Origin: a virus
IMG/VR virus record: IMGVR_UViG_3300012920_000111
Coordinates: 1 to 36,515 of that record
Reading direction: 5' to 3' (one strand)
DNA length: 36,515 nt
The translations under genes were made by a program, and so were the position numbers. The stretch's first letter is position 1; the number at the start of each line of letters is the position of its first letter. This document shows positions 747-28,791 of this stretch, piece after piece. The notes under the pieces were generated by a model. The model worked only from the letters and a program-made list of their open reading frames with translations, searched no databases and had not been told where the DNA came from.

Positions 747-1100
747 ATGCTTAAAAAAGTATTAACAATAGCTGCTGCTTCAGCACTATCAACACCTGCG
801 TTTGCTGGTTTCTATTTAAACGTAGAGAACAATGGTTCTTATACAGGTAAAGACTTTACTGGGTCTGGTACTGACTTACATCTTGGTTATGAAAATGGCA
901 ATGCTTTTGGTAGCTACTACGTTCAAGGTGGTGCATATCTAAACAACCCAGATGGAGCAGATTCAGAAACAAACTTTTCTGGTAAAGCTGGTGGTTCTGT
1001 AGTTGTATCAAAAAATATTGATGTATATGGTGAGCTATCTGTTGTTACTGACGATACAAACAGCTACGGAACTAAGGTTGGTTTGAAGTATAAGTTCTAG
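747..1100 (+). CDS. Small outer-membrane beta-barrel-like protein with signal peptide
   Basis: 117 aa. Residues 1-20 are a clear Sec signal peptide: two Lys, a hydrophobic core and an Ala-Phe-Ala cleavage site before Gly21. The mature ~97 residues alternate polar and hydrophobic positions (YLNVENNGSY, DLHLGYENG, GSYYVQGGAY, DVYGELSVV, YGTKVGLKYKF), as expected for antiparallel membrane strands. The protein ends in Phe, the usual C-terminal signature of outer-membrane proteins handled by the Bam machinery. It is far shorter than a porin and could make about 6-8 strands. A role in altering the infected cell surface (superinfection exclusion or permeability) is a guess. It looks host-derived in style, but no host homologue can be named from sequence. 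Confidence 0.7.
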   Translation: MLKKVLTIAAASALSTPAFAGFYLNVENNGSYTGKDFTGSGTDLHLGYENGNAFGSYYVQGGAYLNNPDGADSETNFSGKAGGSVVVSKNIDVYGELSVVTDDTNSYGTKVGLKYKF

Positions 1101-2437: not shown

Positions 2438-2747
2438 TCTGTGTAATTTTTTCAGTCATTTGATTAGCAGCCCTTGTAGTTATAGACAAAGACCAATCAG
2501 CAGTTACAGTTTTTGGTGTAAAGATAGCGTCTGAATGAGCTATACCACCACTAGAAGCACTTGTAACCTCTATGTTTGATGCTTCCCAAGTATTTAACGC
2601 TGCCCCATATTTCTCAGTTACTACAGATCTTGTAATGGTCTGAGTAGTATTCTCTGTACGGTTACTAGAGCCAGTAGTCCAAGAAGGCACTCCATTGGCA
2701 TATACAGGACTAAACAAAAATAAAGACAGCAATAATAGCTTTTTCAT
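2382..2747 (-). CDS. Secreted Ser/Thr-rich protein of unknown function
   Basis: 121 aa. Residues 1-18 form a signal peptide (MKKLLLLSLFLFSPVYA, with Asn-Gly following). The mature part is rich in Thr and Ser: WTTGSSNRTENTTQTITRSV, YGAALNTWEASNIEV, LSITTRAANQ, SVFSQ at the end. It has no Cys and no further TM segment. The composition suggests a beta-structured exported protein. Its ATG overlaps the stop of the holin-like gene (ATGA at 2747-2744), and its 3' end overlaps the next gene by 56 bp, so all three form one compact minus-strand operon. Overlapping secreted genes after a holin recall spanin pairs, but no lipobox or N-terminal anchor supports that. Confidence 0.62.
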   Translation of the reverse strand: MKKLLLLSLFLFSPVYANGVPSWTTGSSNRTENTTQTITRSVVTEKYGAALNTWEASNIEVTSASSGGIAHSDAIFTPKTVTADWSLSITTRAANQMTEKITQNDSITTTSVITSLSVFSQ

Positions 2748-3124
2748 TTTTTATCAGTATCTAAGGTTAATTTTAAAGGAGTTTCAATACGAACGAGTTG
2801 TGTCTTACCTAACACTTCCTGTAACTCAGCCTTTACATTAGTACCATTCTTACCTTTCTCACCACCTTTCTGTGTAATACTAGCCCCGAAGCTACTAGCA
2901 AGTCCTACAAAAACCGAAGCAATAAAGGTCGGATCTATCTTTTGCTGCGGTATTCCTAGTTTAGATAAGTCTAAATATGAAAGGCTTAACATTGCTGTAG
3001 CCCAAGTCAACAAAATTAGTCTGACTCCTAGTGATACCAATTCAAATTGTTCTTCTCTGCAAGGTACAGCTTCTTGTAATTTGAACCATACACTTTTCTT
3101 TTGTTCTTTTGGTTGTTCTGCCAT
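2744..3124 (-). CDS. Two-TM holin-like membrane protein
   Basis: 126 aa. The N-terminus (1-28) is charged and hydrophilic. TM1 is at about 29-50 (SLGVRLILLTWATAMLSLSY) and TM2 at about 64-83 (PTFIASVFVGLASSFGASI). A basic/polar C-terminal tail of 40 residues follows. Size and topology fit a class II holin (two TM segments, both ends cytoplasmic). It is the first gene of a minus-strand operon with two secreted proteins. No canonical endolysin adjoins it, so the assignment rests on topology only. Cyanophage proteins of this shape are usually annotated as hypothetical or holin. Confidence 0.5.
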   Translation of the reverse strand: MAEQPKEQKKSVWFKLQEAVPCREEQFELVSLGVRLILLTWATAMLSLSYLDLSKLGIPQQKIDPTFIASVFVGLASSFGASITQKGGEKGKNGTNVKAELQEVLGKTQLVRIETPLKLTLDTDKK

Positions 3125-3946: not shown

Positions 3947-5668
3947 TTGCACCCCTTACCAGAAAAACTACAAGATTTTAGATATTTCTTAATCGTTACT
4001 TGGAGACATCTAAACCTACCAGACCCTACACCAGTTCAGTTAGACATAGCTGAATACCTACAATATGGTGCTAGACGTAAGATCATACAAGGATTTAGAG
4101 GTGTAGGTAAGAGTTGGATTACTTCTACCTATGTAGTGTGGAGACTTCGTATGAATCCACAACTTAAATTCTTAGTTGTCTCAGCCAGTAAAGACAGAGC
4201 AGATAATTTTACTACCTTCACTATGCGTCTTATCAATGAAATGCCTATACTCTCTCCATTGATCCCCAGAGACGATCAGAGAAACAGTAAGGTAAGTTTT
4301 GATGTAAGACCAGCACAAGCCGATCATGCACCTTCCTGTTCGTCCAGAGGGGTCTTAGGGCAGATGTCTGGTGCTAGGGCTGATGAAGTTATCGCTGATG
4401 ACGTAGAAGTACCCAATAATTCTTTTACCCAACCTATGAGAGACAAGCTATCGGAAGCTGTAAAAGAATTTGAAGCAATACTAAAACCAAATGGCAAAAT
4501 TACCTTCCTTGGTACACCACAGGTAGAAAATTCTGTATATCTAACCTTAGAAGAACGTGGATATGAAACTAGAATCTGGACTGCTAGATACCCAGAACTT
4601 AAAAACAACTACGGAGATAGACTTGCTCCCAAAATCCAAAAAGAACTCCTAGAAGGTCTTGTAAAGCCTAAAGATCCTGTAGATCCTATAAGGTTCTCTG
4701 CACAGGATCTAATGGAACGTGAAGCTTCCTACGGACGTTCTGGGTTTAATCTACAATTCCAACTAGATACCACCCTTTCAGACCAAGATAGATACCCATT
4801 AAAAATAAACGACCTAGTAATTGCTTCTATCAACAAAGAATTTGCACCAGAAAAAGTTATCTGGTCTAATAATCCCGAATATGTAATACAAGATCTACCC
4901 TGCGTAGGCTTCAATGGTGACAGATTTCATAGACCTGCACAAGAATTTGGTGATTTCATAGAATATACAGGCTCAGTTATGTTTGTTGACCCTTCAGGAA
5001 AGGGTAAGGATCAGACCGCTATAAGCTGCGTTAAGATGCTCAACGGTAATTTATACGTAACTGAGTGTTTAGGGCTGTCTGGGGGTTATACAGACCCTGT
5101 TCTGCTTAAAATATCTAGACTGGCTAAGGAAAATAATATTAATACTATCCTCATTGAACAAAACTTCGGAGGTGGTATGTTTGCTGAACTACTAAAACCA
5201 TTCATATCTCGCATACACCCTTGCCAAATTGAAGACATTAGAAATAACAAGACCAAAGAACTACGAATAATTGATACCCTTGAACCTGTTATGAACTCTC
5301 ACCGTCTAATAATTGACCGCAAAGTAATAGAAAAAGACTTCAGATCCAACCCTCAAGAAACTCCAGAAAGAAGACTCAAACTTCAACTCGTTTACCAACT
5401 GTCACGCATCTCTCGCCACAGAGGTTCCCTAGTACATGATGATCTCGTTGATTCCCTTGCAGGTGCAGTTGCCTACTGGACTGACTACATGGCTCAAAAT
5501 GAAGACTTAAACATGGCTAGAAGGCAAGATGAACTTCTCTCAATACATACTGATAACTGGTCCTCCTTACTAAACAACACCATCTCTCAGACTGCTATGG
5601 GTATGACTCCTCAACAAATAAGAAATACCAACTCCCAAAACCAAGGTTTCATAAGCGATCTCTATTAG
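3947..5668 (+). CDS. terL: Terminase large subunit (DNA maturase B, T7 gp19-like)
   Basis: 573 aa; T7 gp19 is 586. Packaging ATPase and nuclease that cuts concatemers and drives DNA into proheads through the portal. Walker A GFRGVGKS is at residues 49-56 and the Walker B region IADDVE carries Asp151-Asp152. The C-terminal RNase H-like nuclease has FVDPSGKG (Asp348), ILIEQNFGG and HDDLVDSLAGA (Asp498, Asp499, Asp502). The start is TTG at 3947, just after the terS stop; no ATG occurs in frame before the ATPase domain, so the unusual start is well supported. It is the last gene before the long non-coding region, as in T7 where gene 19 lies near the right genome end. Confidence 0.96.
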   Translation: MHPLPEKLQDFRYFLIVTWRHLNLPDPTPVQLDIAEYLQYGARRKIIQGFRGVGKSWITSTYVVWRLRMNPQLKFLVVSASKDRADNFTTFTMRLINEMPILSPLIPRDDQRNSKVSFDVRPAQADHAPSCSSRGVLGQMSGARADEVIADDVEVPNNSFTQPMRDKLSEAVKEFEAILKPNGKITFLGTPQVENSVYLTLEERGYETRIWTARYPELKNNYGDRLAPKIQKELLEGLVKPKDPVDPIRFSAQDLMEREASYGRSGFNLQFQLDTTLSDQDRYPLKINDLVIASINKEFAPEKVIWSNNPEYVIQDLPCVGFNGDRFHRPAQEFGDFIEYTGSVMFVDPSGKGKDQTAISCVKMLNGNLYVTECLGLSGGYTDPVLLKISRLAKENNINTILIEQNFGGGMFAELLKPFISRIHPCQIEDIRNNKTKELRIIDTLEPVMNSHRLIIDRKVIEKDFRSNPQETPERRLKLQLVYQLSRISRHRGSLVHDDLVDSLAGAVAYWTDYMAQNEDLNMARRQDELLSIHTDNWSSLLNNTISQTAMGMTPQQIRNTNSQNQGFISDLY

Positions 5669-5684
5669 GGACCACTATAGGAGA
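5663..5684 (+). promoter_or_regulatory. T7-promoter-like sequence at the end of terL
   Basis: CACTATAGGAGA (5673-5684) matches the T7 class III promoter core and initiation region except for one missing G. The 10 bases before it (TATTAGGGAC) match only about half of the T7 recognition part. It begins inside the terL stop region, the place where T7 carries phi-OR. Against it: close copies are not seen before other genes, and a shorter CACTATGG string recurs at several start codons (7190, 21734, 36220), so it could be a translation-signal relic. Confidence 0.3.
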
Positions 5685-5971
5685 AAAAACAACCTCTACT
5701 CACTAAGATTACATTAAGAATATACTTAGGATTCCACTAGGGGGAAGGATCCTTGACCTGCTGCTGCATGATACTACCCCAAAAAAATTAGGAGCAAAAA
5801 TTTGAAGGGGTTATACGTATATAGAAAATAAATTTTACCCCTAGCCTGTCACAAAAATATAAAAATAATAGTCTAATCCTATTAAAACCATTGATATAAC
5901 TAGTGTTTCATAATATATCTTATATTATTCTTAGTGTATCTGGTCTTATTTTTCTTGTTTAGATGTATTCA

Positions 5972-6152: not shown

Positions 6153-7109
6153 ATGACATTTACATCAAAGAAACCAAGAGTAAAAGTAGAGGAAGAAATT
6201 CTTAAGGATGTTATCAACGCTCTTGAAAATAGGACTTCAGATATTAGTCCTTGGCGTAAGCCTTGGAAACCTGATAACCAAGGTATTCATCAAAACTTTT
6301 TAACTGGTCATCATTACACAGGATCTAATCCAATTATCTTAGAGCTTTATATGTGGTCTAAAGGTCAAGACTTACCTTTATGGATAGGCTACGGCCAAGC
6401 TAAAGAGCAAGGATGGACAGTTAAAAAGGGATCTAAGGCTGCAAGAATTTTGAGACCTAATCCATTTAAGATTGACCTTACAAATGAAGATGGTTCACCA
6501 AAACTTGATAAAGAAGGTAATCAGGAATTTATTATGAAGGTTAGCTTTAAAGGAGCTACTGTCTTTAATGTTTCAGATATTGAAGGTAAAGACCAAAAGA
6601 GCCAAGATAAACTTGACGCAAAGTTAGCAGAGTTTAAGAATCAAAGTATTAAATCTGCTAGGCCTTTAGAGGATAGATGCAAGCAAGCCTTAGAACGCCT
6701 TATGACATACTCAAAAGGCTTAGAGGGTGGATTGCATCACGCAGGGAATAGAGCCTTTTATAGAAGCTCTACGGACTTTGTGAACATGCCAAGAAGGGAA
6801 TCATTTGATAATGATGAAGCTTACCTTGCTACCTTGGCTCATGAGCTTGCCCATTCAACAGCACATAAAACAAGATTAGATTTACCAATAGGTAATCCTT
6901 TTGGATCTAAACTCTATTCATTAGAAGAATTACGGGCGGAATTTTCCAGCATGCTCATAACCAATAGGCTACAAATTAGCTGCGATACTCAGAACCACGT
7001 AGCATATTTTGATTCTTGGATTAAGGCTCTTGATGGTAAAGCTTCTAACCTTATGAAAGTATTCTCTAATGCTGTTAAAGCTGCTGATCTTGTAGTAGGT
7101 GAGCAGTAA
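6153..7109 (+). CDS. ardC: ArdC-like antirestriction protein with zincin metallopeptidase domain
   Basis: 318 aa. The N-terminal ~145 residues match the ArdC/DUF1738 ssDNA-binding domain pattern: SPWRKPWK near 31-38, GHHYTGSNPIIL, LPLWIGYGQAKEQGWTVKKGSKA, then SFKGATVFNVSDIEG. The C-terminal domain is the zincin-type peptidase usually fused to it: LATLAHELAHSTAH with HELAH at 230-234, and EELRAEF (Glu258-Phe264) supplying the third metal ligand. ArdC-family proteins on plasmids protect incoming DNA from restriction. As the first gene after the inferred left end, behind host-type promoters, it occupies the position of T7 gene 0.3 (Ocr), so antirestriction on entry is a reasonable inference. 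Whether the peptidase is active is unknown, but its motif is intact. No strong SD precedes the ATG (ACCAAAACC). Confidence 0.82.
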   Translation: MTFTSKKPRVKVEEEILKDVINALENRTSDISPWRKPWKPDNQGIHQNFLTGHHYTGSNPIILELYMWSKGQDLPLWIGYGQAKEQGWTVKKGSKAARILRPNPFKIDLTNEDGSPKLDKEGNQEFIMKVSFKGATVFNVSDIEGKDQKSQDKLDAKLAEFKNQSIKSARPLEDRCKQALERLMTYSKGLEGGLHHAGNRAFYRSSTDFVNMPRRESFDNDEAYLATLAHELAHSTAHKTRLDLPIGNPFGSKLYSLEELRAEFSSMLITNRLQISCDTQNHVAYFDSWIKALDGKASNLMKVFSNAVKAADLVVGEQ

Positions 7110-8217: not shown

Positions 8218-8453
8218 ATGGAGATGAAGAATGGTTTGATTATTTTACTGAAGCTGAACTTGATTTAATTTGTAGGCATATTTGTAAAATATCAGATGAG
8301 AATGTCATTGTTAGAGATGTACCAGAATCTTTAATAACAGAACTTGTTGATACTGTTATGGCTTATCAACTTATGTGTGTAGGCTGTGAAGTATCAAAAA
8401 CTATTTACCATTTAGGTCATAAATACAGACTTGTTGAAGAGGTAAAAGCATGA
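8214..8453 (+). CDS. Small acidic early protein, unknown
   Basis: 79 aa: MNGDEEWFDYFTEAELDLIC at the start, then HICKISDENVIVRDVPESLI and a helix with VDTVMAYQLMCVGCEVSK. The ATG at 8214 is preferred over the upstream TTG (8199) because GGGAGG (8201-8206) lies 7 bp before it. Four Cys are present but with no zinc-ribbon spacing. The acidic N-terminus with aromatic residues might mimic a partner surface, but that is speculation. It is coupled by ATGA to both neighbours. Confidence 0.58.
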   Translation: MNGDEEWFDYFTEAELDLICRHICKISDENVIVRDVPESLITELVDTVMAYQLMCVGCEVSKTIYHLGHKYRLVEEVKA

Positions 8454-8710
8454 AGTGTCCTAAATGTGAGAGCCTAGAAAGTCAAGTGTTTGACAGTCGG
8501 GCTACTCTCTCTCAACGTGGTCACAAAATAGGCAAGCCAGTACCCACTTACAAACAACAAAGAGAGGATTTTATTCCTTACATTTGGAGGAGGAGGAAGT
8601 GTCTAGCTTGTGGTCATAGATTTTCTACTAGGGAATACACAATAAAAAACCTAGTAGATTTTAATAAACAAAGCTATCTAAAAATGATAGATGAATTAAT
8701 GCCTGACTAA
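8450..8710 (+). CDS. NrdR-like zinc-ribbon protein without ATP-cone
   Basis: 86 aa. The N-terminal CPKC (Cys3, Cys6) and CLACGHRFSTRE (Cys51, Cys54) with the preceding RRRK match the zinc-finger half of NrdR (MxCPxC...DSR...RRRxCxxCxxRFTTxE); SQVFDSR at residues 11-17 also fits. A 20-residue insert lies between the halves. NrdR is the bacterial repressor of ribonucleotide reductase operons and has a C-terminal ATP-cone, which is absent here. The phage protein could bind NrdR boxes in host nrd promoters without nucleotide control; that is inference. No RNR gene is in this genome. It overlaps the previous gene by ATGA. Confidence 0.75.
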   Translation: MKCPKCESLESQVFDSRATLSQRGHKIGKPVPTYKQQREDFIPYIWRRRKCLACGHRFSTREYTIKNLVDFNKQSYLKMIDELMPD

Positions 8711-8734: not shown

Positions 8735-9052
8735 ATGAAAACTAAAAATAAAAAAATCTTTGCATACAAATCAGACTTACATGGTAGGTGGTTTTGGTTG
8801 TCTGATGGGTTTGATCTTAGGTCACACCCTCTTATAGAACAAAAACTATTTAATAATGTTCATATGCCTATAGCAGATACTACAGGCGATTATGTTTGTG
8901 ATTGGTCATGCTTTGATGATTTAGATTTAGAGCAACATCAAGAACTAATAAAGATACAAAAAACTTTATTCTGTTTTGAGCATATGCAAAAGCAATTAGA
9001 CAATACAGAATTAAGACACATTTACTTAATTGAAATAAAGGAACCACAATGA
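8735..9052 (+). CDS. Early protein of unknown function
   Basis: 105 aa: basic start (MKTKNKKIFAYKSDLHGRWF), WLSDGFDLRSHPLIEQKLF in the middle, an acidic WSCFDDLDLEQHQELIK part, then two helices and a short strand (IYLIEIKEPQ). No domain recognised. The RBS region GAGGAACCACAATG is nearly identical to that of the integrase gene (AAGGAACCACAATG), and both proteins start MKTK, so the two start regions look duplicated. The stop overlaps the integrase ATG (ATGA). Confidence 0.58.
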   Translation: MKTKNKKIFAYKSDLHGRWFWLSDGFDLRSHPLIEQKLFNNVHMPIADTTGDYVCDWSCFDDLDLEQHQELIKIQKTLFCFEHMQKQLDNTELRHIYLIEIKEPQ

Positions 9053-9978
9053 AAACTAAAATGCCTACACTTTCCGAAGCAACTAAAGTTGTATATCGAA
9101 GAAGGAAAAATGGTACAAAATCTGCTGCTAATTTCTTGATAGGAATGAAGCACAACATCAAAGCACTTGGGGATCTACCAGTAAATAAAATTACTAGACC
9201 CTTAGTAAATAAAATGATGGACTATCACAAAGAAAAATTAAAGAATAGTAATGCAGTTATCAATCAGAAGATGGGTTATCTTAGGGTCGTCTTATCTGAG
9301 ATGGAGGAGGACGGATTTATAGAGATGATTAAAATGCCAAAACCTAGACCAACAAAGAACAGTAAGGTGCATTATCTAACTAAAGATATGGAAGATGAAC
9401 TGTTATCTTGGTTTGAAGGAAATAAAATTTATAAAGAAACTATAGAATACAGATTGATAAATTTTCCACATCAAGTTTCTAAAGTACAAAGATATAATTT
9501 ACAAGTAATTAAAGAACAATTAGAAGCAAGAGATATTATAATTTGCTTGATTGATTTAGGTTGCAGGGTAAATGAACTTCTAAATTTAGAAAAAAGATTT
9601 GTTGACTTTGACAATAATCAAATCAATTTTAATGATAGAAAAAACGATCAAGCTGTAGCTGTACCCATGACAGATAGAGTTAAATTAATAATTAAAAAAT
9701 ACTATGACAACTGTAAAGACTTCGATAAATTATTTAGTCTTAACTACTCAAAAATGTATGGATTCTGGCAAGGTGCAAGAAGGAGTCTAGGCTATGCCGA
9801 TAAGAAGTTTTATACTATCCACCTATGCCGACATACTTGTGCGTCTAGGCTAGTACAAAGAGGAGTACCGATACTGTTAGTTAAAGATTGGCTAGGGCAT
9901 GAAGACATAGAGAACACTATGATCTATGCACACTTACAACCCAAAGCACTACATAGTTATGTGGAGGTGTTGAACTGA
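9049..9978 (+). CDS. int: Tyrosine recombinase, phage integrase
   Basis: 309 aa. The N-terminal SAM-like core-binding domain (about 20-95) has KSAANFLIGMKHNIKALG and NAVINQKMGYLRVVLSEM. The catalytic domain carries Arg173 (GCRVNELL), a lysine in the beta-hairpin (NDRKNDQAV), His258-x-x-Arg261 (HLCRHT), His284 (LGHED) and the nucleophile Tyr293 (MIYAH), nine residues after His284 as expected. The catalytic set is complete, so it should perform site-specific recombination between attP and attB. Integrases of this kind occur in some marine T7-like phages (cyano- and pelagiphages). No excisionase or repressor is recognised nearby, and I see no tRNA-like attP. The gene is in the early block before the RNA polymerase. 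Confidence 0.93.
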   Translation: MKTKMPTLSEATKVVYRRRKNGTKSAANFLIGMKHNIKALGDLPVNKITRPLVNKMMDYHKEKLKNSNAVINQKMGYLRVVLSEMEEDGFIEMIKMPKPRPTKNSKVHYLTKDMEDELLSWFEGNKIYKETIEYRLINFPHQVSKVQRYNLQVIKEQLEARDIIICLIDLGCRVNELLNLEKRFVDFDNNQINFNDRKNDQAVAVPMTDRVKLIIKKYYDNCKDFDKLFSLNYSKMYGFWQGARRSLGYADKKFYTIHLCRHTCASRLVQRGVPILLVKDWLGHEDIENTMIYAHLQPKALHSYVEVLN

Positions 9979-10162: not shown

Positions 10163-10411
10163 CAAGTAAAAGTATTATTAATTAAACCTGATCTTGAATT
10201 GGTGCATGATTATTTGTTAAACAAAAAACTTACACCAATTTTTTTACCTAACATCTCATGGTTTCAAAAGAATAAAGCCTATGGATTGGTTAAGAAAATG
10301 AGTAAATACAAAGGTGGGTTTCCTACTTTTAAAAAAGATTATCAAAACTTTATAGAGAATACTTATTACATCTTTAGAAAACCTATTGACGAGAACTATA
10401 TAGATGTCTGA
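10160..10411 (+). CDS. Small basic protein before the RNA polymerase, unknown
   Basis: 83 aa, basic and aromatic: VLLIKPDLELVHDYLLNKKL, FLPNISWFQKNKAYGLVKKM, FKKDYQNFIENTYYIFRKP. Predicted alpha/beta without TM segments or Cys. It starts behind the second copy of the GGAGG coupling sequence and overlaps the RNA polymerase start by 8 bp, so its translation should feed that gene. No family is recognised. Confidence 0.6.
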   Translation: MQVKVLLIKPDLELVHDYLLNKKLTPIFLPNISWFQKNKAYGLVKKMSKYKGGFPTFKKDYQNFIENTYYIFRKPIDENYIDV

Positions 10412-12800
10412 ACCAAGCAAGAAACAACTAGAGCTAGAGCAAAGCATTTGTTCTATTGCTGCATATAACAAACTCAGCAAACAAAATAGAAACATAGAGA
10501 AGGGGAGAGAGAGTTGTAATTACTACGCTAGAAATCTTATTGAAGCAGGGTTAGATAAGCTTACAAAAGAAATAGATAAACATATACAAGAAGCCTTTAA
10601 CGGTAAGGTCGGAGCCAAAGCTGTCTCTGCTATCTTTCTTAAAAAGTTTAGTGACCTTGATGTAGTTTCTTTTATTGCTTTCAAGGTGATAATAGATAAT
10701 GTTTCGCAGGTAAAAACTACAACACAAACAGCTTTAAAGATAGGGCAAATGTTAGAAGATGAACTAAGGTTTACATCTTTTGAAGAGCAAGATAAAAAGC
10801 ACTATGAAAATATAAAGAACCATACCAGAGACACCAACCACGAAGGATATAAAAAAAGATTAATGGTATATCACATGAATAAGAAGGGTCATACCTATGA
10901 AGAATGGGGTCGTGTTAATAAACTTAAGGTCGGGTTAAAGCTTATAGAGATAGTAATGCTCAAGCTTAGAATGATAAAGCTTATTAATCGTAGGAATAAA
11001 AATAAAACTACCTCTCATGTTATCTTTACTGAGGTGTATATGGATTACATAAGGAAAGGTAGAGCTAATAGGATAGCAGCTTATCCTATCTACCTACCTT
11101 GCTTAGATGAACCTAGACCTTGGACTTCTATATATGAAGGTGGTTACTACACTTACAGATTAAAAACAAAAGCTATCAAGACTAACGACAAATCTTATTT
11201 AAAGTCAGCACAAGAACAAGACTTAACAACAAGTCTAAAAGCGTTGTCTCTTGCTCAACAAACAGCTTGGACTGTAAATAAATTTGTTCTTGAAACTCTA
11301 GTGTATTGTTGGGAAGAACGTATAGAAGTAGGTGCATGTATCGATAGAGAACTGGCAGAGCTACCAACAAAACCTTTAGACATAGATACCAATAAAGAAA
11401 GTCGTAAGGAGTGGAGATATTTAGCTTCTTTAATACATGATATGAACGCACACAATAGAGTCAAGAGATACCAAATACTTACCTTGATTGATACAGCAAA
11501 AAGATATGATGGCGAAAAATTTTTTCACGTTTACCAGTTTGACTTTACTGGTCGGATGTACCCTGTAACAGCACACTTCCATCCACAAGGTAATGATATT
11601 GCTAGAGCCTTACATATCTTTCATAAGGGTGCAGAGATAAAGAATAAACAAGATGCAAATTGGTTGGCAATAAGTGGTGCAAATCATTGGGGTCTTAATA
11701 AACATACCTATGAGGAAAGGTTAGAATGGGCATATACAGCAGGGATTGATATAGCAGAGCAAGTATATAAAGATCCAAAGGCACATACAGCTTTGTGGGG
11801 TCAGGCAAAAGAACCATTCCAATTTCTTGGGTGGTGTAAAGAGTGGCATGAATATCAAATAGTAGGAGAGGGGTATATCTCACATCATTGTTGCTGCCTT
11901 GATGGAACTAATAATGGTTATCAACATATAGCAGGTCTTACATTCGATCAGAGTTTAGCTAATAAAGTGAACCTACAAAATATAAATCAACCACAAGATT
12001 TATATAAACAAGTACTTGATATTCTATTGTTATTACTAAAGAATGAAGATAATGAACAGGCTAAAGAATGGTATAGATATAAAGATAAATTGACTAGGAA
12101 GTTTATAAAGAAACCTGTGCTAATGATTCCATACAACTCAACAACATTTGGTATAGCTAACTATATAGAAAAATATTTTGTAAATGAAAATATATCTATG
12201 GCTAGGAACTATAAAAATAATTTTTACTTAGCAAGTCTTATCGAACAAGCTGTAAAATATATAACACCTGAGAGCTATAACTTATTAAATTATTTAAAGA
12301 CAACTGCTGCATCTTTTAATGAAGAGAATAAACCTATAACTTGGCACTCACCATCTGGTTTCTATGTACAACAAAACTATTATGTAAATGATGTGAAGAG
12401 AATAAAGACAAAGCTTAGTAATATAACTATCAGATTAAATATACATGAACCAAATCAGACAAAGATAGATAAACGCAGACAGTCACAAGGATTTCCTAGT
12501 AACTATATACATAGCTTAGATGCTGCACATTGTCAGTTAAGTTTAGTAAAGGCTAGTCAAAAAGGACTTAAACAATTTTGTGTTATACATGACTGCTATG
12601 GAAGTCCAGCAGGTGAACTAGAAACATTTATTCAATGTGTAAAACAAACATTCTTTGATATATATAGTGACAATAATTTAGATAATTTGTACCATCAAAC
12701 CGCACAACAATTAAGTGATACCAGCAAGTTACCACCTGCACTAGATATGGGTAGGTATAACATTACAGATGTCTTGACTGCACCATATATATTTACATAA
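10404..12800 (+). CDS. T7-like single-subunit DNA-directed RNA polymerase
   Basis: 798 aa; T7 gp1 is 883. It transcribes the middle and late phage genes from phage promoters. The palm/fingers motifs are intact: motif A CLDGTNNGYQH with Asp500 (T7 Asp537), motif B KFIKKPVLMIPYNSTTFG with Lys569 and Tyr577 (T7 Lys631, Tyr639) and motif C IHDCYGS with Asp730 (T7 Asp812). FDFTGRMYPV (T7 DWRGRVYAV) marks the template/primer-contact region. The C-terminus is hydrophobic (APYIFT), unlike the FAFA end of T7 but of similar place and character. The N-terminal ~300 residues, which bind promoters in T7, diverge strongly, so T7 promoter sequence cannot be assumed. Confidence 0.97.
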   Translation: MSEPSKKQLELEQSICSIAAYNKLSKQNRNIEKGRESCNYYARNLIEAGLDKLTKEIDKHIQEAFNGKVGAKAVSAIFLKKFSDLDVVSFIAFKVIIDNVSQVKTTTQTALKIGQMLEDELRFTSFEEQDKKHYENIKNHTRDTNHEGYKKRLMVYHMNKKGHTYEEWGRVNKLKVGLKLIEIVMLKLRMIKLINRRNKNKTTSHVIFTEVYMDYIRKGRANRIAAYPIYLPCLDEPRPWTSIYEGGYYTYRLKTKAIKTNDKSYLKSAQEQDLTTSLKALSLAQQTAWTVNKFVLETLVYCWEERIEVGACIDRELAELPTKPLDIDTNKESRKEWRYLASLIHDMNAHNRVKRYQILTLIDTAKRYDGEKFFHVYQFDFTGRMYPVTAHFHPQGNDIARALHIFHKGAEIKNKQDANWLAISGANHWGLNKHTYEERLEWAYTAGIDIAEQVYKDPKAHTALWGQAKEPFQFLGWCKEWHEYQIVGEGYISHHCCCLDGTNNGYQHIAGLTFDQSLANKVNLQNINQPQDLYKQVLDILLLLLKNEDNEQAKEWYRYKDKLTRKFIKKPVLMIPYNSTTFGIANYIEKYFVNENISMARNYKNNFYLASLIEQAVKYITPESYNLLNYLKTTAASFNEENKPITWHSPSGFYVQQNYYVNDVKRIKTKLSNITIRLNIHEPNQTKIDKRRQSQGFPSNYIHSLDAAHCQLSLVKASQKGLKQFCVIHDCYGSPAGELETFIQCVKQTFFDIYSDNNLDNLYHQTAQQLSDTSKLPPALDMGRYNITDVLTAPYIFT

Positions 12801-12873: not shown

Positions 12874-13530
12874 ATGGAAGAACTCAAGCCAGAGACTATT
12901 AAGATAGTCACACCTAACCCTACTAATTTTAGGTATTCATATCTTGTAACCCCTGATGAATACAAAGGTGTTAGGAAATATAAAGCAGAGTGTCTTATCA
13001 AGAAGGGCACAATGCTTAAAGATCAAATGGGTAAGGAGGTTGATGCTGTTGAACATATCTTTGAACAGCTAGAAGGGTTACTTGAAAGATGGAAAGCTGC
13101 TTTGAAAGAACACTATCCAGACAGAAAGTTTAGTCTTACAAAAAACAAACATGGCGAACCATCATTGCCTTACTTTCTTGAAGATGATTACTTAGTAATC
13201 AGAACAAGCAAGAAGGCTGGTGGTGTTAAACAGAATGGTGATGTATGGACTAATCCACCTGTAACCTTTTGGGCTAATGAAGATCCCTTACGTCTTATGA
13301 CAGAGGAAGAAAAGAAAGAGTATGAAAAGATCAGTCCAGCTTTAGAAGGTCAAATGTCTATGAAGTGTAGTGGCTATGATGCAGGTGCTAATGGTGTCGG
13401 TATCAGATGCCAACCTTTACAAGTCATAGTAAGAAGACACGCTGAATGGACAGGCAGCCCAGACTTTGAAGCAGAAGCACAACCTAACTATGAAGAAAAA
13501 AGAACTGCAACTTCAGCAGCCGACTTCTAA
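12874..13530 (+). CDS. Single-stranded DNA-binding protein (T7 gp2.5-like)
   Basis: 218 aa; T7 gp2.5 is 232. It covers ssDNA at the fork and coordinates the replisome. The fold region (about 10-195) has the pattern of the phage SSB/DUF2815 group: FRYSYLVTPDEYKGVRKYKA, LIKKGT, EHIFEQLEGLLERWKAAL, LVIRTSKKAGG, then SMKCSGYDAGANGVGIRCQP. The C-terminal tail is acidic and ends in Phe (TSAADF), as in gp2.5, where the aromatic end contacts the polymerase and helicase. Since no phage DNA polymerase is encoded, this tail may have to work with a host partner. The gene starts the DNA metabolism block. Confidence 0.88.
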   Translation: MEELKPETIKIVTPNPTNFRYSYLVTPDEYKGVRKYKAECLIKKGTMLKDQMGKEVDAVEHIFEQLEGLLERWKAALKEHYPDRKFSLTKNKHGEPSLPYFLEDDYLVIRTSKKAGGVKQNGDVWTNPPVTFWANEDPLRLMTEEEKKEYEKISPALEGQMSMKCSGYDAGANGVGIRCQPLQVIVRRHAEWTGSPDFEAEAQPNYEEKRTATSAADF

Positions 13531-13873
13531 ATACAAGAGTAAGTTTGAAGCTGACTTTGCAGCTACACTAAACAAAAAGAAAATTGTATTTACTTACGAA
13601 ACCCTTGAAATAGATTATGAAATTACTTGCTGCTACAAGCCTGATTTTATCCTCGACAATTTTATTGTTGAAACAAAAGGGTACTTCTCAAAAGAAGATA
13701 GGAGAAAGCATCTTATCATCAAGAAGACTAGACCCGAACTAGATATTAGATTCTGTTTTCAAAACAGTAAGACTAAATTATCTAAAGCTAAGAACTCTAT
13801 CTCGTATGCCAAATGGTGTACGAGACATGGGTTTCAATATTGCGATAAAACTATTCCTGATGATTGGTATTAA
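13490..13873 (+). CDS. Endonuclease I, Holliday-junction resolvase (T7 gp3-like)
   Basis: 127 aa; T7 gp3 is 149. It resolves branched DNA before packaging and helps degrade host DNA. The PD-(D/E)xK active site is intact: Glu20 (KFEADFA), Asp52 (YKPDFIL), Glu61 and Lys63 (FIVETKGYF). The downstream EDRRKHLIIKKTRPELDIRF and SYAKWCTRHGFQYCDKTIPD and the final Trp-Tyr align well with T7. I use ATG 13490 and not the TTG at 13466. The gene overlaps the SSB gene by 41 bp in another frame, and its stop overlaps the next ATG (TAATG). Confidence 0.93.
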   Translation: MKKKELQLQQPTSKYKSKFEADFAATLNKKKIVFTYETLEIDYEITCCYKPDFILDNFIVETKGYFSKEDRRKHLIIKKTRPELDIRFCFQNSKTKLSKAKNSISYAKWCTRHGFQYCDKTIPDDWY

Positions 13874-14028
13874 TGTTTAACTACCATATACCTGACAACC
13901 CAAAAGCAGGTGATATTTATTTTGATCCTATAAATGATTTATGGAGAGTTTACAACGGTAAGACATGGGTTGATGTAAACCTAAGAGAACACAAATGTAA
14001 CTTAGATGAAGAGTCAATACAAGAATAA
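13873..14028 (+). CDS. Small conserved-type protein between endonuclease I and primase
   Basis: 51 aa: MFNYHIPDNPKAGDIYFDPI, NDLWRVYNGKTWVDV, then NLREHKCNLDEE. The GDIYFDPxNDxWRVYNGxxW pattern is the kind seen in short beta-hairpin domains of phage structural proteins, but it is too short for a firm family. In T7 the amidase lysozyme (gene 3.5) sits here; this protein is far too short and has no amidase residues. It overlaps the primase-helicase start by 23 bp and the endonuclease stop by one base. Confidence 0.6.
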   Translation: MFNYHIPDNPKAGDIYFDPINDLWRVYNGKTWVDVNLREHKCNLDEESIQE

Positions 14029-15613
14029 AAAGATTTGCCCTGAGTGTGGCAAAAAGAATTGTGCAGTCTTTGATGATGGGCATGAACATTGCTTTACTAT
14101 GGGCTGCGACTACACCTACTACCCAAACAAGAAAGAAAAGAAATTGAGTAACATCATTCCAATGAGAAAGCCATCACCTAAATTATTAAAGGTGACACCG
14201 ATAGCCCTACCTAAACGTGGAATCACTAAAGAGACATGCGAACTATTTGGTTATGGACAGGGAGAATATAGAGGACAACCAGTTCAAGTAGCTACTTACA
14301 AAGATCAGTTCGGTAAAGATGTAGCACAGCATGTAAGGTTTCAAGACAAGAAATTTATATGGATTGGTGATATGTCAAAGGTACAACTATGGGGTCAGCA
14401 TCTATGGAGACAACATGGTAGTAATGGATCAGTCTTTGTTACCTGTTGTGAGGGTGAGATTGACTGCATGAGTGCTAGTCAGATACAGGGTAATAAGTTT
14501 CCTTGTATATCTATTCCGTCAGGTGTGCAGTCAGCAGCTAAGTATCTGGCAGCAAACTATAAATGGTTAGATAGTTTTTGTCGTATAGTTCTTTGCTTTG
14601 ATAATGATGAAGCAGGGGAGAAAGCTAGTGAGAAATGTATGGAGGTCTTACCTAAAGGTAAGGTTGCTATTGCAAGACTAGATAGAAAAGATGTTAACGA
14701 ACATTTGGTACTGAATGAAGGAGAACTTGTTAAAGATAGATTATGGAAAGCTAGGCCAGTAAGACCAGACAGTTTAATTAATGCTGCTGATGCTTGGGAT
14801 CTATTTAATAAAGAAACAAGCTTACCTATCTCAGACTTTCCTTATCCAAAGTTAAACGAATATACCAAAGGTTTATTTCCAAGCCAACTGTTTACGATAG
14901 CTAGTGGTAGCGGTGCAGGTAAAAGCACTATATGTAGAGAGATGGCTTATCACTTTCTGCAACGTGACATCAAGGTAGGTTATATCGGACTAGAAGAAAC
15001 CGTACAAAGAACATTACAAGGATTAGTTGGTATAGATCTCAACTGCCCTTTGCATCTCAACGACAATAGATATACAGATGAAGAGATCAAATCTGCATTT
15101 GATAAGCTGACATCTACAAGAAATTTATTTTTATATAACCACTTTGGTAGTCTTGACCCTGATGTACTGCTTGAACAGATAAGGTATCTGGCAACAGTAG
15201 ATAAAGTAAAGGTAGTAATACTGGATCACATATCTATAGTGATGTCTGGTCTTGAGTTAGACAATGAACGTAGGGCTATAGATGTAACCATGACAAAGCT
15301 TAGAAGCTTATGTGAATCTACAAATATAGCTTTGATAGTTGTCAGCCATCTACGAAGACCACAAGGCCAAGGGCATGAGGAAGGTAGAGACATATCTGTT
15401 TCTGATCTACGAGGATCTCATAGTCTGGTTCAGTTAAGTGACATTGTTCTTGGTGCTTCACGAAACCAAGTAGGAGAAGCATACGAAAGATCAAGACTAC
15501 AACTAAAGATACTTAAGTCAAGACATACTGGTATGACAGGAGAAGTAGATAGGTTACTGTACGACCAGAACACAGGTCGGTTAGTTGTTTATGAAGACAC
15601 CTTTGGAGATTAA
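14006..15613 (+). CDS. Primase-helicase (T7 gp4-like)
   Basis: 535 aa; T7 gp4 is 566. The N-terminal zinc ribbon has Cys11, Cys14, Cys29 and Cys34 (CPEC, HCFTMGC). The TOPRIM primase core has Glu149 (CCEGEIDCMSA) and Asp199-Asn-Asp201 (LCFDNDEAG). The RecA-like hexameric helicase has Walker A GSGAGKST (301-308), Walker B VVILDH (Asp407), VVSHLRRPQ and DLRGSHSLVQLSD. It unwinds the fork and makes primers. It would have to hand primers to a host polymerase because this genome encodes none. The exonuclease follows after 2 bp, exactly where T7 has the DNA polymerase gene in between. Confidence 0.96.
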   Translation: MKSQYKNKKICPECGKKNCAVFDDGHEHCFTMGCDYTYYPNKKEKKLSNIIPMRKPSPKLLKVTPIALPKRGITKETCELFGYGQGEYRGQPVQVATYKDQFGKDVAQHVRFQDKKFIWIGDMSKVQLWGQHLWRQHGSNGSVFVTCCEGEIDCMSASQIQGNKFPCISIPSGVQSAAKYLAANYKWLDSFCRIVLCFDNDEAGEKASEKCMEVLPKGKVAIARLDRKDVNEHLVLNEGELVKDRLWKARPVRPDSLINAADAWDLFNKETSLPISDFPYPKLNEYTKGLFPSQLFTIASGSGAGKSTICREMAYHFLQRDIKVGYIGLEETVQRTLQGLVGIDLNCPLHLNDNRYTDEEIKSAFDKLTSTRNLFLYNHFGSLDPDVLLEQIRYLATVDKVKVVILDHISIVMSGLELDNERRAIDVTMTKLRSLCESTNIALIVVSHLRRPQGQGHEEGRDISVSDLRGSHSLVQLSDIVLGASRNQVGEAYERSRLQLKILKSRHTGMTGEVDRLLYDQNTGRLVVYEDTFGD

Positions 15614-15615
15614 TT

Positions 15616-16350
15616 ATGACACTACTTATTGATGCTGATTGGTTGATATTCTCTAGCTGTTGTGCCTGTCAGGAAGACACACAATGGAGTGAATGGGAGC
15701 ATACATTACATAGTGATGTAAGAGACTGTCTTAACTTGATAGAGAATAGACTTGATGTATATAGAACTATTGCAGAGAGCAAGCATGATATTGTCATGTG
15801 CTTTACTTCTTACCCTACATTTAGACATGAGATATTTCCTGACTACAAGATTAACAGGATAGGTAAGCTAAAACCTTTGGCTCTTAAAAATACAATAAAT
15901 AAAGTAAAAGAAAGATATGAATGTATTACTTATCCAAACCTTGAGGGTGATGACGTACTTGGGTTACTTGCAACTAATGGTAGGTATGACAATCCTATTA
16001 TTGTGTCAGTCGATAAGGATATGAGAACCATTCCTTGCAAGCTACTAGCAGCAGAAGAGATAGAACATATTACAGAAAAGAAAGCTAACAGGCATTGGTT
16101 TGAAATGTCTATGGCTGGTGATGCAGGTGACGGAATACTAGGTATTAAAGGTATGGGTATGGTTACAGCAAGCAAGACCTTAGCTGATACACCTGATACT
16201 GTTGAAGCACTATGGGATAAAGTATCAAAGACTTATACAAAGAAAGGACATACACTAGCTGATGCCATACTCAATGCAAGACTTACAAGAATACTAAGAG
16301 AAGGTGATTATAACTATCAGACAGGAGAAGTAAATCTTTGGAAGCCATAA
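15616..16350 (+). CDS. 5'-3' exonuclease (T7 gp6-like, FEN/PIN family)
   Basis: 244 aa; T7 gp6 is 300. It removes RNA primers and degrades host DNA for nucleotides, and also helps concatemer formation. Metal-binding acids of the FEN family are present: Asp6 and Asp8 (LIDADW), Glu110, Asp112 and Asp113 (NLEGDDVLG), Asp133 and Asp135 (SVDKDM), and Asp169 and Asp172 (GDAGDGILGIKGMG, the helix-hairpin-helix start). It is the last gene of the DNA metabolism block and is followed by a strong hairpin. The gene 2 bp upstream is the primase-helicase, leaving no room for a polymerase. Confidence 0.93.
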   Translation: MTLLIDADWLIFSSCCACQEDTQWSEWEHTLHSDVRDCLNLIENRLDVYRTIAESKHDIVMCFTSYPTFRHEIFPDYKINRIGKLKPLALKNTINKVKERYECITYPNLEGDDVLGLLATNGRYDNPIIVSVDKDMRTIPCKLLAAEEIEHITEKKANRHWFEMSMAGDAGDGILGIKGMGMVTASKTLADTPDTVEALWDKVSKTYTKKGHTLADAILNARLTRILREGDYNYQTGEVNLWKP

Positions 16351-16351
16351 A

Positions 16352-16387
16352 GAAAACCCTATGAGGAACCACCAACATAGGGTTTTC
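16352..16387. terminator. Strong 12-bp hairpin after the exonuclease, candidate bidirectional terminator
   Basis: GAAAACCCTATG (16352-16363) and CATAGGGTTTTC (16376-16387) pair perfectly. The 12-nt loop AGGAACCACCAA repeats the AGGAACCAC string used as ribosome binding site by early genes. The A-run on the left and T-run on the right suit termination in both directions. It separates the replication and virion blocks. Confidence 0.65.
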
Positions 16388-16397
16388 AAAGCAGTAC

Positions 16398-16419
16398 AGC
16401 AAGGCAACCAATCCTTGCT
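16398..16419 (+). other. Second hairpin in the replication-virion gap
   Basis: AGCAAGG (16398-16404) and CCTTGCT (16413-16419) pair perfectly with an 8-nt loop. A 44-nt AT-only-rich stretch follows up to the GTG at 16464. It could be part of a processing site or of a promoter region for the virion genes; no sigma70 pair is clear. Confidence 0.4.
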
Positions 16420-16463
16420 ATCTATACATTAACATATAAAATAATTATAACTATATTAAATCT

Positions 16464-25324: not shown

Positions 25325-25918
25325 ATGTGTGTTGGTGCTGCATTATTAGGTCCAGCTTCTACAGCAGCAGGTACAGGATTACTTGGCCTGTCTGCTGCAA
25401 CAACATTTAATATAGGCTTAGGTCTTACTGCTGCTAATGCTTTCTTAGGTAGGCGAGCTAAACAACAAACTGCTAGACAAACTTATCAGACATCTTTAGC
25501 TGCTAACAGATCAGCAGAAGATGACAAGAGACAGCAACAACTAGCTTTAGCAGAAAGGAAAGCAGAGCAAGAGAAGAGTGCAGCACAAGATATATTTGCA
25601 AAGAATATAGTAAACTTACAACGTAGCAGACAGATATTAGCTTCTGAACGTGCTGGTACGACTATAGGTTTGTTATTACAAGATAACGAAAAACAAGGTG
25701 CTAACTATAGAAAAAGTATTAATCAAAGTCTTGAATCAATGAATAGACAGTATGCTTTTAATATTCAACAAACAGAAGCACAATTTGACACTAGAAGAAA
25801 TAATTTGCAGAGTAATATAAATCAAGCTTACAATGCGATACCTTCACTTGGTCAAACCTTGTTAAGTATCGGTACTCAAGGTTTAAGCCTTGGTTTAAAA
25901 TCACTACCTTCAGGATAA
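25325..25918 (+). CDS. Internal virion protein, gp14-like ejection pore
   Basis: 197 aa; T7 gp14 is 196. The N-terminal hydrophobic part (about 1-45, ALLGPASTAAGTGLLGLSAA and IGLGLTAANAFLG) is followed by long Gln/Ala-rich helices (RQTYQTSLAANRSAEDDKRQ, ERKAEQEKSAAQDIF) and a Gly/Leu end. T7 gp14 is ejected and forms the channel in the outer membrane for DNA entry; the same order and composition here support that role. It begins directly after the gp13-like stop and ends in a TAATG overlap with the next gene. Confidence 0.85.
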   Translation: MCVGAALLGPASTAAGTGLLGLSAATTFNIGLGLTAANAFLGRRAKQQTARQTYQTSLAANRSAEDDKRQQQLALAERKAEQEKSAAQDIFAKNIVNLQRSRQILASERAGTTIGLLLQDNEKQGANYRKSINQSLESMNRQYAFNIQQTEAQFDTRRNNLQSNINQAYNAIPSLGQTLLSIGTQGLSLGLKSLPSG

Positions 25919-28791
25919 TGACAGACAGTTTTCAAAGCACAGCTTTCGAGAGTTCAAGGCAACCAGTAAGTACATTTGTTTCTCCTGTAAGAGTGCAACC
26001 TAAAACAAACCTTATGGCCTTAGCTGAAACTATGGCTGAGATAAACCCTACTCTACAAAAGTTTGTTAGCTTTCAAATAGAAAAAGCAAAACAAGAAGGA
26101 ATACAACAAGGTCAGTTACAGGTCTTAGGGTCTGATCCAGAAGGTATAGATAAGCTTAGAAAAGAATTAGAGAAAAAAGAAGGTAAAAGATTTGCTAGGA
26201 ATTTTGTTGGTGGAAATATTTATACACAATACGGAATTGAAAAACAACTAGCAATTAATTTAGGTAATGCTAGTGAAGCTAAAACTAAAAAGTTTTTTGA
26301 TGAATATGTAGTAGATGTTGCATTACCAAATGGACAGACTATTCAAAAACCTTTATCTCAATTTGATACTAACTCTAATGAATTTCAACAAGCAGTAAAT
26401 GAGTTTCAAGAAACATCTTTGATGAATACAAGAGGAATAAGACCAGAGATAGTAAATCAATTCTTATTACCTAAACAAAATTTAGCTTTAGAAAAAGTTT
26501 ATAAAAAACAACAAGAAAATTTAGCAGATGCAAAAATTAAACAAGCAAATCTACTATTTAATAATTCAATATTAAACTCTTGGTTTAGTATTGATAACAT
26601 CAATGACAATATAGAAAATAATTTAATAGAAGATAATAAATCAAAGAATGGATTATCTACAGCAGAAGTTTTATCTTTAAATGAATTACAAGACAATATT
26701 AATTATATGGTGAAAATTGGATTAAGTAGTAGTGTTTCTCCAAGCAAAATAATAGATGTTATGAAAACAAACATCTTGCAAATATTTGATTATTACGAAA
26801 ATAATAATCTTGATATGGAAGTAGCAGAAGAAGAAATACAAGAATATATTAATTGGATAGGTAATTTAAAAGTTACTAATAATCAACCTTTAAGAAATTT
26901 TTATATACAAGATGGAGAAGATAAAATTGAAACATTTATGAGTGATATAAATAAGAAAAAAGCAACTGCTATAAAAAATCAAAACGCTTTTCAAAGACAA
27001 CAAGATCAAGAAAATATAACTAATACTCTTAACAACATAAATTTTTCATTTACTAATTTTGAAAATCAAGACGGAAGTTTTAATATAAAAAAAGCAACAA
27101 TGTACTACAAACAAGTAGGTAATTTATTAGAAGGATTAGCAAATGAATATCCAGAAGAGATTGATTTTTTATATAAACAGTATGATTTAAGAAATTTTAG
27201 TGTTGATAATTTCTTTTTTGATTTAGAACAAAGATACGATCAAGGAGAAGTTACACAGACAGAAGGTTTAAATCAATTAAATGATGTAATGTTAGCTTTA
27301 GGACCAAATGCTTCTAAAGAAGATAGAGCAAAATATACTAAATTAAAAGAATATTTAGGTGAAACAGAAGGTAAAAGTTTAGATTCAAGATTTCCAGAAG
27401 TTGCAAACCTTAAAAAATATGGTTTAAAAACTGTAGGTAAAACTAATGATTATGGAGTTTCATTTATAGGAGATCAACCTACTGTTGATAAAATGGAAGA
27501 TTTGAATTTAGAACTTAATAGATTAGTAAAACAATATGGAGGTCTTACTGGTACATTTACAACTGATGATGATAAAAATATGACTGTAAGAAACTGGTAT
27601 TTAGGAGAAATAAGAAAAATTAAAAATCCTAAAGTATTTGGTCAATATGAATTTTATGATTCAGCTTTAGATTTTACACAGCCAGTACCAGTAATACAAG
27701 AAAAAACAAATGATAGTGGAGATGGTAAAGGTAGAACAGTTAATTTAGATCAACAGAAAGTATTGATATACGATAAAGAAACAAAACTATTTAACGAAGT
27801 AGATCCAAGTAAATTTAAGACAAATGCAAATACTATAGTTGTATCTATGAATGGTGGTTTAACACAAGATGGTTTAGGACTTAAAGATAAATTGAACATA
27901 GATTCTTTTGAAAACTTTAATTACAAACTTTACAACCAAAACTTTGAAAACAAAAAAACAATAGATAAGAATAAAAAATTATTAACAGATGATTTAGAAG
28001 CTGGTGCTGTTACGGAAGTTTCAGATGAAGAAGCAAAAGAAATTATTGAAAGAGAAGATGCACAAGAAAAAGCTTTAGAGTTATACGAAAGCAAATCTAA
28101 AACTTATATTGTTAAATCAGGAGATAACTTATCTGTAATAGCAAAAGAATTTAATATTACAGTCGATCAATTAAAAGAAGATAACAATTTAAAATCTGAT
28201 TTAATTCAACCTAAACAAAAATTAAAGATAAGATACAATCCTATAAATGATAAATTTGATTTTAAATCTACTGAAATATTACCTTTTACGGATCATGGTG
28301 GACTAGCATCAATTATTAGAGATGGAGAAAGCAGCAACAGATATAATGTTGTTAATTATGGTACAACAGATTCAGCTAAAGTCATACCCAACTTAGAAAG
28401 TATGACTATAAATCAAATTATGGAAATGCAAAAAAATGATGGGGTATTTGCTGTAGGTGCATATCAATTTACTCCCGAACCTTTAAAAGAAGCTATGACT
28501 AGGGCTGGATTAAGTGGTGATGTTAAGTTTTCTAAAGACGTACAAGATAGATTATTTTGGGCAAGAATAGCTAATACACTTTTAAGATCAGATATTAGTG
28601 ATTACCTAATGGGTATATCAAATGATTTAGACGCAGCACTTGATTCTTTAGCTGATGAATTTGCTGCTGCACCTAACTCATTAGGTAAAGGTGTACATGA
28701 TAATGACGAAGGTAGAAATAAAGCTAATATTGATTTAACTAAACTAAAAACAGCATTGCAAAATGCTCGTAAAGAATTATTAAAAATCTAA
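25918..28791 (+). CDS. Internal virion protein (gp15-position) with LysM and lysozyme-like domain
   Basis: 957 aa; T7 gp15 is 747. The first ~700 residues are a mostly helical, Asn/Lys/Gln-rich core-protein region. A LysM domain follows at about 728-771 (TYIVKSGDNLSVIAKEFNIT, then LIQPKQKLKI). The C-terminal part (from ~792) reads as a lysozyme/transglycosylase fold: LASIIRDGESSNRYNVVNYG with Glu804 as the likely catalytic acid, and GVFAVGAYQFTPEPLKEAM. It should open peptidoglycan during DNA ejection. In T7 the transglycosylase domain sits at the N-terminus of gp16, so domain placement differs here. TAATG couplings on both sides. Confidence 0.85.
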   Translation: MTDSFQSTAFESSRQPVSTFVSPVRVQPKTNLMALAETMAEINPTLQKFVSFQIEKAKQEGIQQGQLQVLGSDPEGIDKLRKELEKKEGKRFARNFVGGNIYTQYGIEKQLAINLGNASEAKTKKFFDEYVVDVALPNGQTIQKPLSQFDTNSNEFQQAVNEFQETSLMNTRGIRPEIVNQFLLPKQNLALEKVYKKQQENLADAKIKQANLLFNNSILNSWFSIDNINDNIENNLIEDNKSKNGLSTAEVLSLNELQDNINYMVKIGLSSSVSPSKIIDVMKTNILQIFDYYENNNLDMEVAEEEIQEYINWIGNLKVTNNQPLRNFYIQDGEDKIETFMSDINKKKATAIKNQNAFQRQQDQENITNTLNNINFSFTNFENQDGSFNIKKATMYYKQVGNLLEGLANEYPEEIDFLYKQYDLRNFSVDNFFFDLEQRYDQGEVTQTEGLNQLNDVMLALGPNASKEDRAKYTKLKEYLGETEGKSLDSRFPEVANLKKYGLKTVGKTNDYGVSFIGDQPTVDKMEDLNLELNRLVKQYGGLTGTFTTDDDKNMTVRNWYLGEIRKIKNPKVFGQYEFYDSALDFTQPVPVIQEKTNDSGDGKGRTVNLDQQKVLIYDKETKLFNEVDPSKFKTNANTIVVSMNGGLTQDGLGLKDKLNIDSFENFNYKLYNQNFENKKTIDKNKKLLTDDLEAGAVTEVSDEEAKEIIEREDAQEKALELYESKSKTYIVKSGDNLSVIAKEFNITVDQLKEDNNLKSDLIQPKQKLKIRYNPINDKFDFKSTEILPFTDHGGLASIIRDGESSNRYNVVNYGTTDSAKVIPNLESMTINQIMEMQKNDGVFAVGAYQFTPEPLKEAMTRAGLSGDVKFSKDVQDRLFWARIANTLLRSDISDYLMGISNDLDAALDSLADEFAAAPNSLGKGVHDNDEGRNKANIDLTKLKTALQNARKELLKI

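Follow-up and report, generated by a model that had tools for sequence, protein, structure and literature searches.

The replication block of the T7-like virus analysed here lacks gene 5, which encodes the family A DNA polymerase, and the best explanation is that a common ancestor lost the gene once, long ago, and that a host polymerase now works behind the phage primase-helicase gp4 (probability roughly 0.84). The analysed DNA (the window) is the metagenomic virus record IMGVR_UViG_3300012920_000111 from IMG/VR, 36,515 nt in length. The main claim was already published in 2022 by Cai et al., who isolated 18 polymerase-less phages, named them MPP-C, and proposed that they rely on Pol I or Pol III of the host or on an unrecognised polymerase of their own (PMC9860041). 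The novelty that the original prediction implied for such a module was therefore largely pre-empted; what is new here is the single origin of the trait, an uncultured GC-rich group that shares it, the paraphyly of MPP-C, and a contrast between the C-terminal tails of gp4 and the ssDNA-binding protein (SSB).

The genome is closed, its ends being joined by a 15-bp terminal overlap across which one ORF reads, and its GC content is 34%. The coordinates of the replication block and of other assigned genes are collected in Table 1. The predicted 2-bp junction between gp4 and the exonuclease, with no gene 5 in between, was confirmed; the right edge given for the block, 16461, overshoots the exonuclease stop at 16350. 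The SSB had no Pfam match, and its assignment came from a profile of 45 relatives, which matched T7 gp2.5 (1je5, E 3e-9), and from an AlphaFold model (pLDDT 81) whose best PDB fold match was also gp2.5 (1je5, TM 0.60-0.70). The gp4 protein aligned with T7 gp4 (PDB 6n7i, E 6e-88) over 516 residues (11-526), and the zinc-binding cysteines, TOPRIM acidic residues, Walker A, and helicase motifs and catalytic residues were all present. The second half of its zinc site is CX4C (CFTMGC) in P-SCSP2-type phages and CX2C in P-SCSP1a and in the GC-rich locus L202. The profile and Pfam matches indicate that SSB, endonuclease I, primase-helicase, and exonuclease are intact, which supports the proposal of a clean loss of gene 5 and not decay of the block.

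Table 1. Features of the replication block and selected other genes in the window
Feature	Coordinates	Strand	Evidence
Terminase large subunit (TerL), TTG start as listed	3947..5668	+	Pfam Terminase-T7_RNaseH-like E 1.9e-35
Tyrosine integrase	9049..9978	+	Pfam Phage_integrase E 1e-20
Single-subunit T7-type RNA polymerase (gp1-like)	10404..12800	+	Pfam RNA_pol E 1.9e-76
gp2.5-like ssDNA-binding protein (SSB)	12874..13530	+	PHROG_112 E 3e-7; profile match to T7 gp2.5 (1je5) E 3e-9; fold match
SSB C-terminal tail, mostly disordered, ends ...AADF	13453..13527	+	Sequence and AlphaFold model
Endonuclease I (gp3-like), TTG start as listed, overlaps SSB end	13466..13873	+	Pfam Phage_endo_I E 1.4e-34
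54-aa ORF of unknown function between endonuclease and gp4	13864..14028	+	Counterpart by position annotated in P-SCSP2 at 5558-5764
gp4-like primase-helicase, 535 aa	14006..15613	+	Pfam T7 primase-helicase, Toprim, DnaB_C; T7 gp4 match
gp4 C-terminal peptide VVYEDTFGD, where most T7-like phages with a polymerase have an acidic ...DF tail	15584..15610	+	Sequence comparison
2-bp junction at the usual position of gene 5 (DNA polymerase) in T7-like phages	15614..15615	.	Exonuclease ATG at 15616
gp6-like 5'-3' exonuclease	15616..16350	+	Pfam 5_3_exonuc_N E 1.9e-13; PHROG_107 E 2.3e-51

Gene 5 is absent from the window. No DNA polymerase of any family was found by Pfam among the 121 window ORFs of at least 40 aa (ORFs lying outside other listed ORFs), short ones included, and six-frame searches of the window with PF00476, PF07733, and PF00136 were negative. 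A T7-type polymerase HMM found nothing in six-frame searches of the window (best E 2), P-SCSP2, or P-SCSP1a, and it recovered the gene in the positive controls Syn5, S-CBP2, P-RSP2, and, split, P-SSP7; three of the control genomes had contributed to this HMM, and a version built without Syn5, S-CBP2, and P-SSP7 also found the gene. Together with the confirmed closure, these results bear out the prediction that no polymerase ORF lies elsewhere in the genome.

The third option of Cai et al. was a phage-encoded DNA polymerase so divergent that it escapes recognition (PMC9860041), and the large ORFs at 25918-28791 and 28791-33542 in the window, being poorly annotated, could have held one. However, a LysM domain and a weak match to an internal virion protein were found in these two ORFs, which are not shared by every polymerase-less group, and they were rejected as virion proteins. 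The ORFs that are conserved in all of these groups encode TerS, TerL, RNA polymerase, SSB, endonuclease I, gp4, exonuclease, a 73-aa product, portal, scaffold, the major capsid protein (MCP), tail tubes, and the gp13-like protein (a few antisense overlaps of conserved genes also scored, as expected), and no unassigned ORF above 160 aa was conserved across all of them. Because every conserved ORF is either an assigned T7-type gene or shorter than 160 aa, a hidden polymerase is very improbable. An assembly artefact or a defective genome, with gene 5 deleted during assembly or in one phage, might be suspected in a metagenomic record. The polymerase-less junction, however, occurs in more than 170 other loci (contigs and isolates), including the nearest IMG/VR contigs, P-SCSP2, and GU943031, and 18 sequenced isolates propagate in culture (PMC9860041). 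This independent recurrence refutes an assembly deletion and leaves such an origin with a practically negligible chance.

The window is a T7-like ocean virus and, by its gene content and trees, a new genome within the P-SCSP2 subgroup of MPP-C cyanopodoviruses; the polymerase-less cyanopodovirus lineage mentioned in the original prediction is a real one (PMC9860041). The features of Autographiviridae were found in the single-subunit phage RNA polymerase and in the T7-type structural and packaging genes: TerL, portal, MCP, and tail tube have homologues in T7 and its relatives, and the scaffold and gp13-like protein were recognised by Pfam. The family A DNA polymerase, usual in the family although not obligatory, is missing, and the family already includes MPP-C members without gene 5. 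As in MPP-C, the window has no DNA polymerase and a small genome (36.5 kb closed, slightly below the published 37.3-37.9 kb of the isolates), and its core genes group with the MPP-C isolates, the window joining P-SCSP2 at 100 in both the gp4 and the structural trees; the latter, built on concatenated structural genes, supplied the suggested comparison of TerL and capsid with polymerase-less cyanopodoviruses. Pfam scans found none of the auxiliary metabolic genes psbA, hli, nrd, talC, or thyX in the window, again as in MPP-C, the NrdR-like zinc ribbon described below not being a ribonucleotide reductase (RNR). The host is probably Prochlorococcus, going by P-SCSP2.

P-SCSP2 (OM416780; PMC9860041) resembles the window in having no DNA polymerase, the same 2-bp junction, an integrase, and the same block order. 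The two are clearly separate genomes, with about 76% nucleotide identity in the replication block; protein identity was 80% for gp4, 75% for the exonuclease, and 82% for concatenated RNA polymerase, portal, MCP, tail tube B, and TerL. P-SCSP2 was reported to have no recognisable endonuclease (PMC9860041). This proved wrong: an intact, unannotated endonuclease I lies at 5185-5628 on the plus strand (L001, stop to stop) and is 86% identical to that of the window over 116 residues. P-SCSP1 (OM416763), from another MPP-C subgroup, likewise lacks a DNA polymerase, carries endonuclease I and SSB, and has gp4 and exonuclease 53% and 54% identical to those of the window; it differs in its RNA polymerase (23%) and MCP (50%) and in having TerL on the opposite strand, and by structural genes it groups with the GC-rich uncultured set. 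T7 has homologous RNA polymerase, SSB, endonuclease I, primase-helicase, and exonuclease (gp1, gp2.5, gp3, gp4, gp6) in the same order, whereas the window lacks gp5 and the acidic, Phe-ended gp4 tail that tethers the polymerase in the T7-type replisome, its gp4 ending in VVYEDTFGD. The MPP-A, MPP-B, and P-RSP2 cyanopodoviruses also carry the T7-type block, but all those examined (Syn5, S-CBP2, P-SSP7, and P-RSP2) have a family A polymerase between gp4 and the exonuclease.

Several other genes of the window were observed. An 86-aa NrdR-like zinc ribbon with no ATP-cone match (8450-8710, plus strand; Pfam E 2e-12) has a homologue in P-SCSP2, and similar zinc-ribbon ORFs sit between gp4 and the exonuclease in some GC-rich relatives; as the phage has no RNR, this protein might act on host RNR control. 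A signal-peptide-like ORF at 747-1100 (plus strand) is, as assigned by sequence, probably the source of a Pfam Phage_OMP match (cyanophage outer-membrane beta barrel, best E 3e-37). The ORF at 6153-7109 (plus strand) encodes an ArdC-type antirestriction protein (ArdcN and zincin-like metallopeptidase), homologues of which occur in P-SCSP2 and, among the polymerase-bearing phages compared, in one. In a genome that is otherwise plus-strand, a three-gene minus-strand cassette at 1898-3124, possibly for lysis, is kept in P-SCSP1a and P-SCSP2 and present in two polymerase-bearing phages.

To survey the trait, 272 gp4 loci were scanned with gp4, exonuclease, and polymerase HMMs: 153 had a polymerase, 104 had gp4 adjoining the exonuclease without one, and 15 were left unclassified. 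The GC-rich locus among the 104, L202, led in a further search to at least 80 loci with a GC content of 54-64%. No polymerase lay between gp4 and the exonuclease in 73 of these and 7 were too short, so that the polymerase-less junction was found in 73/73 informative loci taken from the best 80 of 574 relatives; the group is larger than sampled, since 574 stretches encode relatives, and L272 is the same contig as L202. These uncultured T7-like phages (IMG/VR; L202 and L272-L351) share with the window an RNA polymerase-SSB-endonuclease I-gp4-exonuclease block without a polymerase, and their gp4 is 52% identical to that of the window; they differ in base composition and in their gp4 ends, mostly ...YFGT. 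PF00476 was absent from 14 virus records of the group (32-60 kb). Some members carry inserts between gp4 and the exonuclease, in which the polymerase HMM had no match and the ORFs, read by eye, were zinc-ribbon, ThyX-like, or RlpA-like. The ThyX-like ORF lies where gene 5 would sit in L293, L311, L321, and L337, and the RlpA-like ORF occurs between the same two genes in L315 and L330.

No isolate of the GC-rich group was found, the best isolate matches being P-SCSP1 phages (gp4 57%, MCP 67%). No report of this GC-rich group was found in the open-licence literature, and we know of none. A contig scan of genomes for its host gave only one match (42%), in a Devosia MAG, and no tRNA genes were found in these phages. 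A match to a methyltransferase of Synechococcus phage S-H1 (93 bp, 88%) was too little to assign a host, and the reading of the 60-kb contig L284, which has a 1.2-kb internal repeat (90%), as a prophage was not borne out.

In the gp4 tree of 127 representatives, all polymerase-less sequences formed one clade (SH-aLRT 100) with one change, and the result was the same with the tail removed; in the exonuclease tree, the polymerase-less sequences (25/93) also formed one clade (SH-aLRT 100). Judged by these two phylogenies, the polymerase-less gp4-exonuclease pair was shown to have a single origin common to the P-SCSP2-type, P-SCSP1-type, and uncultured GC-rich groups. The searches began from polymerase-less queries and their relatives, and independent losses may have occurred elsewhere among T7-like phages. 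In the tree of concatenated portal, MCP, tail tube B, and TerL, P-SCSP1a joined the GC-rich phages (100) and the window joined P-SCSP2 (100); forcing the window, P-SCSP2, and P-SCSP1a together was rejected (AU p 2e-20). The grouping of the AT-richer P-SCSP1a with GC-rich phages opposes base composition. Because P-SCSP1 groups with the GC-rich set by its structural genes, MPP-C, on these trees, is PARAPHYLETIC: as named, it is paraphyletic once the GC-rich phages are included.

The sequences fit a single loss of gene 5 with vertical descent. A different history, which leaves the mechanism untouched, would have the gp4-exonuclease cassette arise once and then spread by recombination between the P-SCSP2-type and P-SCSP1/GC-rich backbones, and not by descent alone. 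The gp4 and exonuclease proteins are 52-58% identical across groups, whereas in RNA polymerase (23%) and capsid (50%) the window is at least as far from P-SCSP1a as from polymerase-bearing phages, and the two backbones stay apart in the best structural tree. However, a vertical history was not rejected: a clade of all polymerase-less phages was compatible with the structural genes (AU p 0.27) but had no positive support from them, and gp4, which alone prefers P-SCSP1a with the window group, was also compatible with a placement of P-SCSP1a beside the GC-rich group (p 0.175). We consider spread by recombination unlikely, though deserving of consideration.

In T7, two basic patches on gp5 serve as binding sites for the acidic gp4 tail and its terminal Phe (PMC12593628, PMC12230644). 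Of 137 distinct gp4 tails from phages with a polymerase, 115 finish in F (110) or Y (5), whereas none of 177 polymerase-less gp4s does, their ends being FGD, EDFI, DFADL, FFGEKL, YFGT, and similar; the median net charge of the tail is -4 with a polymerase and 0 without. The SSB, by comparison, has a terminal F in 112/112 distinct proteins from loci in which no polymerase was detected (a few being too short to classify). The question raised earlier, of how the helicase and the SSB tail couple to a host polymerase, is sharpened by this contrast: the gp4 tail that contacts the T7 polymerase is gone, and the SSB tail keeps its terminal Phe. A link between polymerase loss and loss of the acidic, Phe-ended gp4 tail, with the SSB Phe kept, is suggestive only, because it rests on one evolutionary event; the two changes coincide on one branch, which gives one independent pair. 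In the pelagiphages HTVC025P, HTVC011P, and Gjalp, which retain the polymerase, gp4 ends in FDE with no terminal Phe. Because a further role of the SSB tail in T7 is to guard the protein's own DNA-binding site, retention of the SSB tail need not mean contact with a polymerase.

Under one ancient loss with a host polymerase behind gp4, the common ancestor would have lost gene 5 once and DNA synthesis would have passed to a host enzyme. Phage gp4 would still unwind and prime, the gp2.5-like SSB would coat single strands, endonuclease I and the exonuclease would process DNA, and the host polymerase would extend the gp4 primers. With its gp5 partner gone, the acidic, Phe-ended gp4 tail would have given way to a short, aromatic C-terminus of nearly neutral charge, which may contact a new partner. 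The need to recruit a host polymerase, as originally predicted, follows by elimination, and the choice between Pol I and Pol III was left with neither clearly ahead. Pol I, to which we give about an even chance, is slightly favoured by analogy, since it belongs to the same family A as gp5 and since plant organelles pair a gp4-type helicase with Pol I-type polymerases. There, Pol I-type polymerases are coupled to the gp4-type Twinkle, whose C-terminus is not acidic; removal of 10 residues from this C-terminus weakens binding and coupling (PMC12230644).

The host Pol III holoenzyme in place of Pol I is a variant compatible with the first half of this explanation, and we rate it at somewhat below even odds. 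Here, gp4 would replace DnaB/DnaG, and the new gp4 C-terminus or the SSB tail would contact the clamp, clamp loader, or DnaX. Like DnaB, gp4 moves 5'-3', and the SSB keeps the terminal Phe common to bacterial SSB tails, which bind replication proteins. However, the primers made by T7 gp4 are very short and Pol III requires a clamp loaded on a longer hybrid, and the SSB tails AADF, GFDF, and EEEF found among the polymerase-less phages differ from the bacterial DIPF-type motif. That phages without a polymerase can use the host replicase is illustrated by SPP1, in the passage on it in PMC9860041. More tentatively, and with the odds against so specific a picture, the polymerase-less T7 replisome may be an old, successful architecture, arisen once, spanning AT-rich and GC-rich phages of different hosts, with the gp4 C-terminus re-tooled from an acidic, Phe-ended gp5 tether to a short conserved aromatic motif (such as YFGT, FFGEKL, TFGD, or EDFI) for docking a host polymerase or clamp.

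Counts of cyanopodoviruses often rely on DNA polymerase as a marker, and the larger the polymerase-less radiation, the more phages such counts miss; the trait goes back to one old origin and is also characteristic of a large uncultured GC-rich group. T7 provides the textbook four-protein replisome, in which the tether between helicase and polymerase has been described in atomic detail. By keeping the helicase-primase and SSB but losing the polymerase, phages of this kind offer a natural experiment on the transfer of synthesis from a phage fork to a host enzyme, and the contrast between the gp4 and SSB tails offers a specific, testable target.
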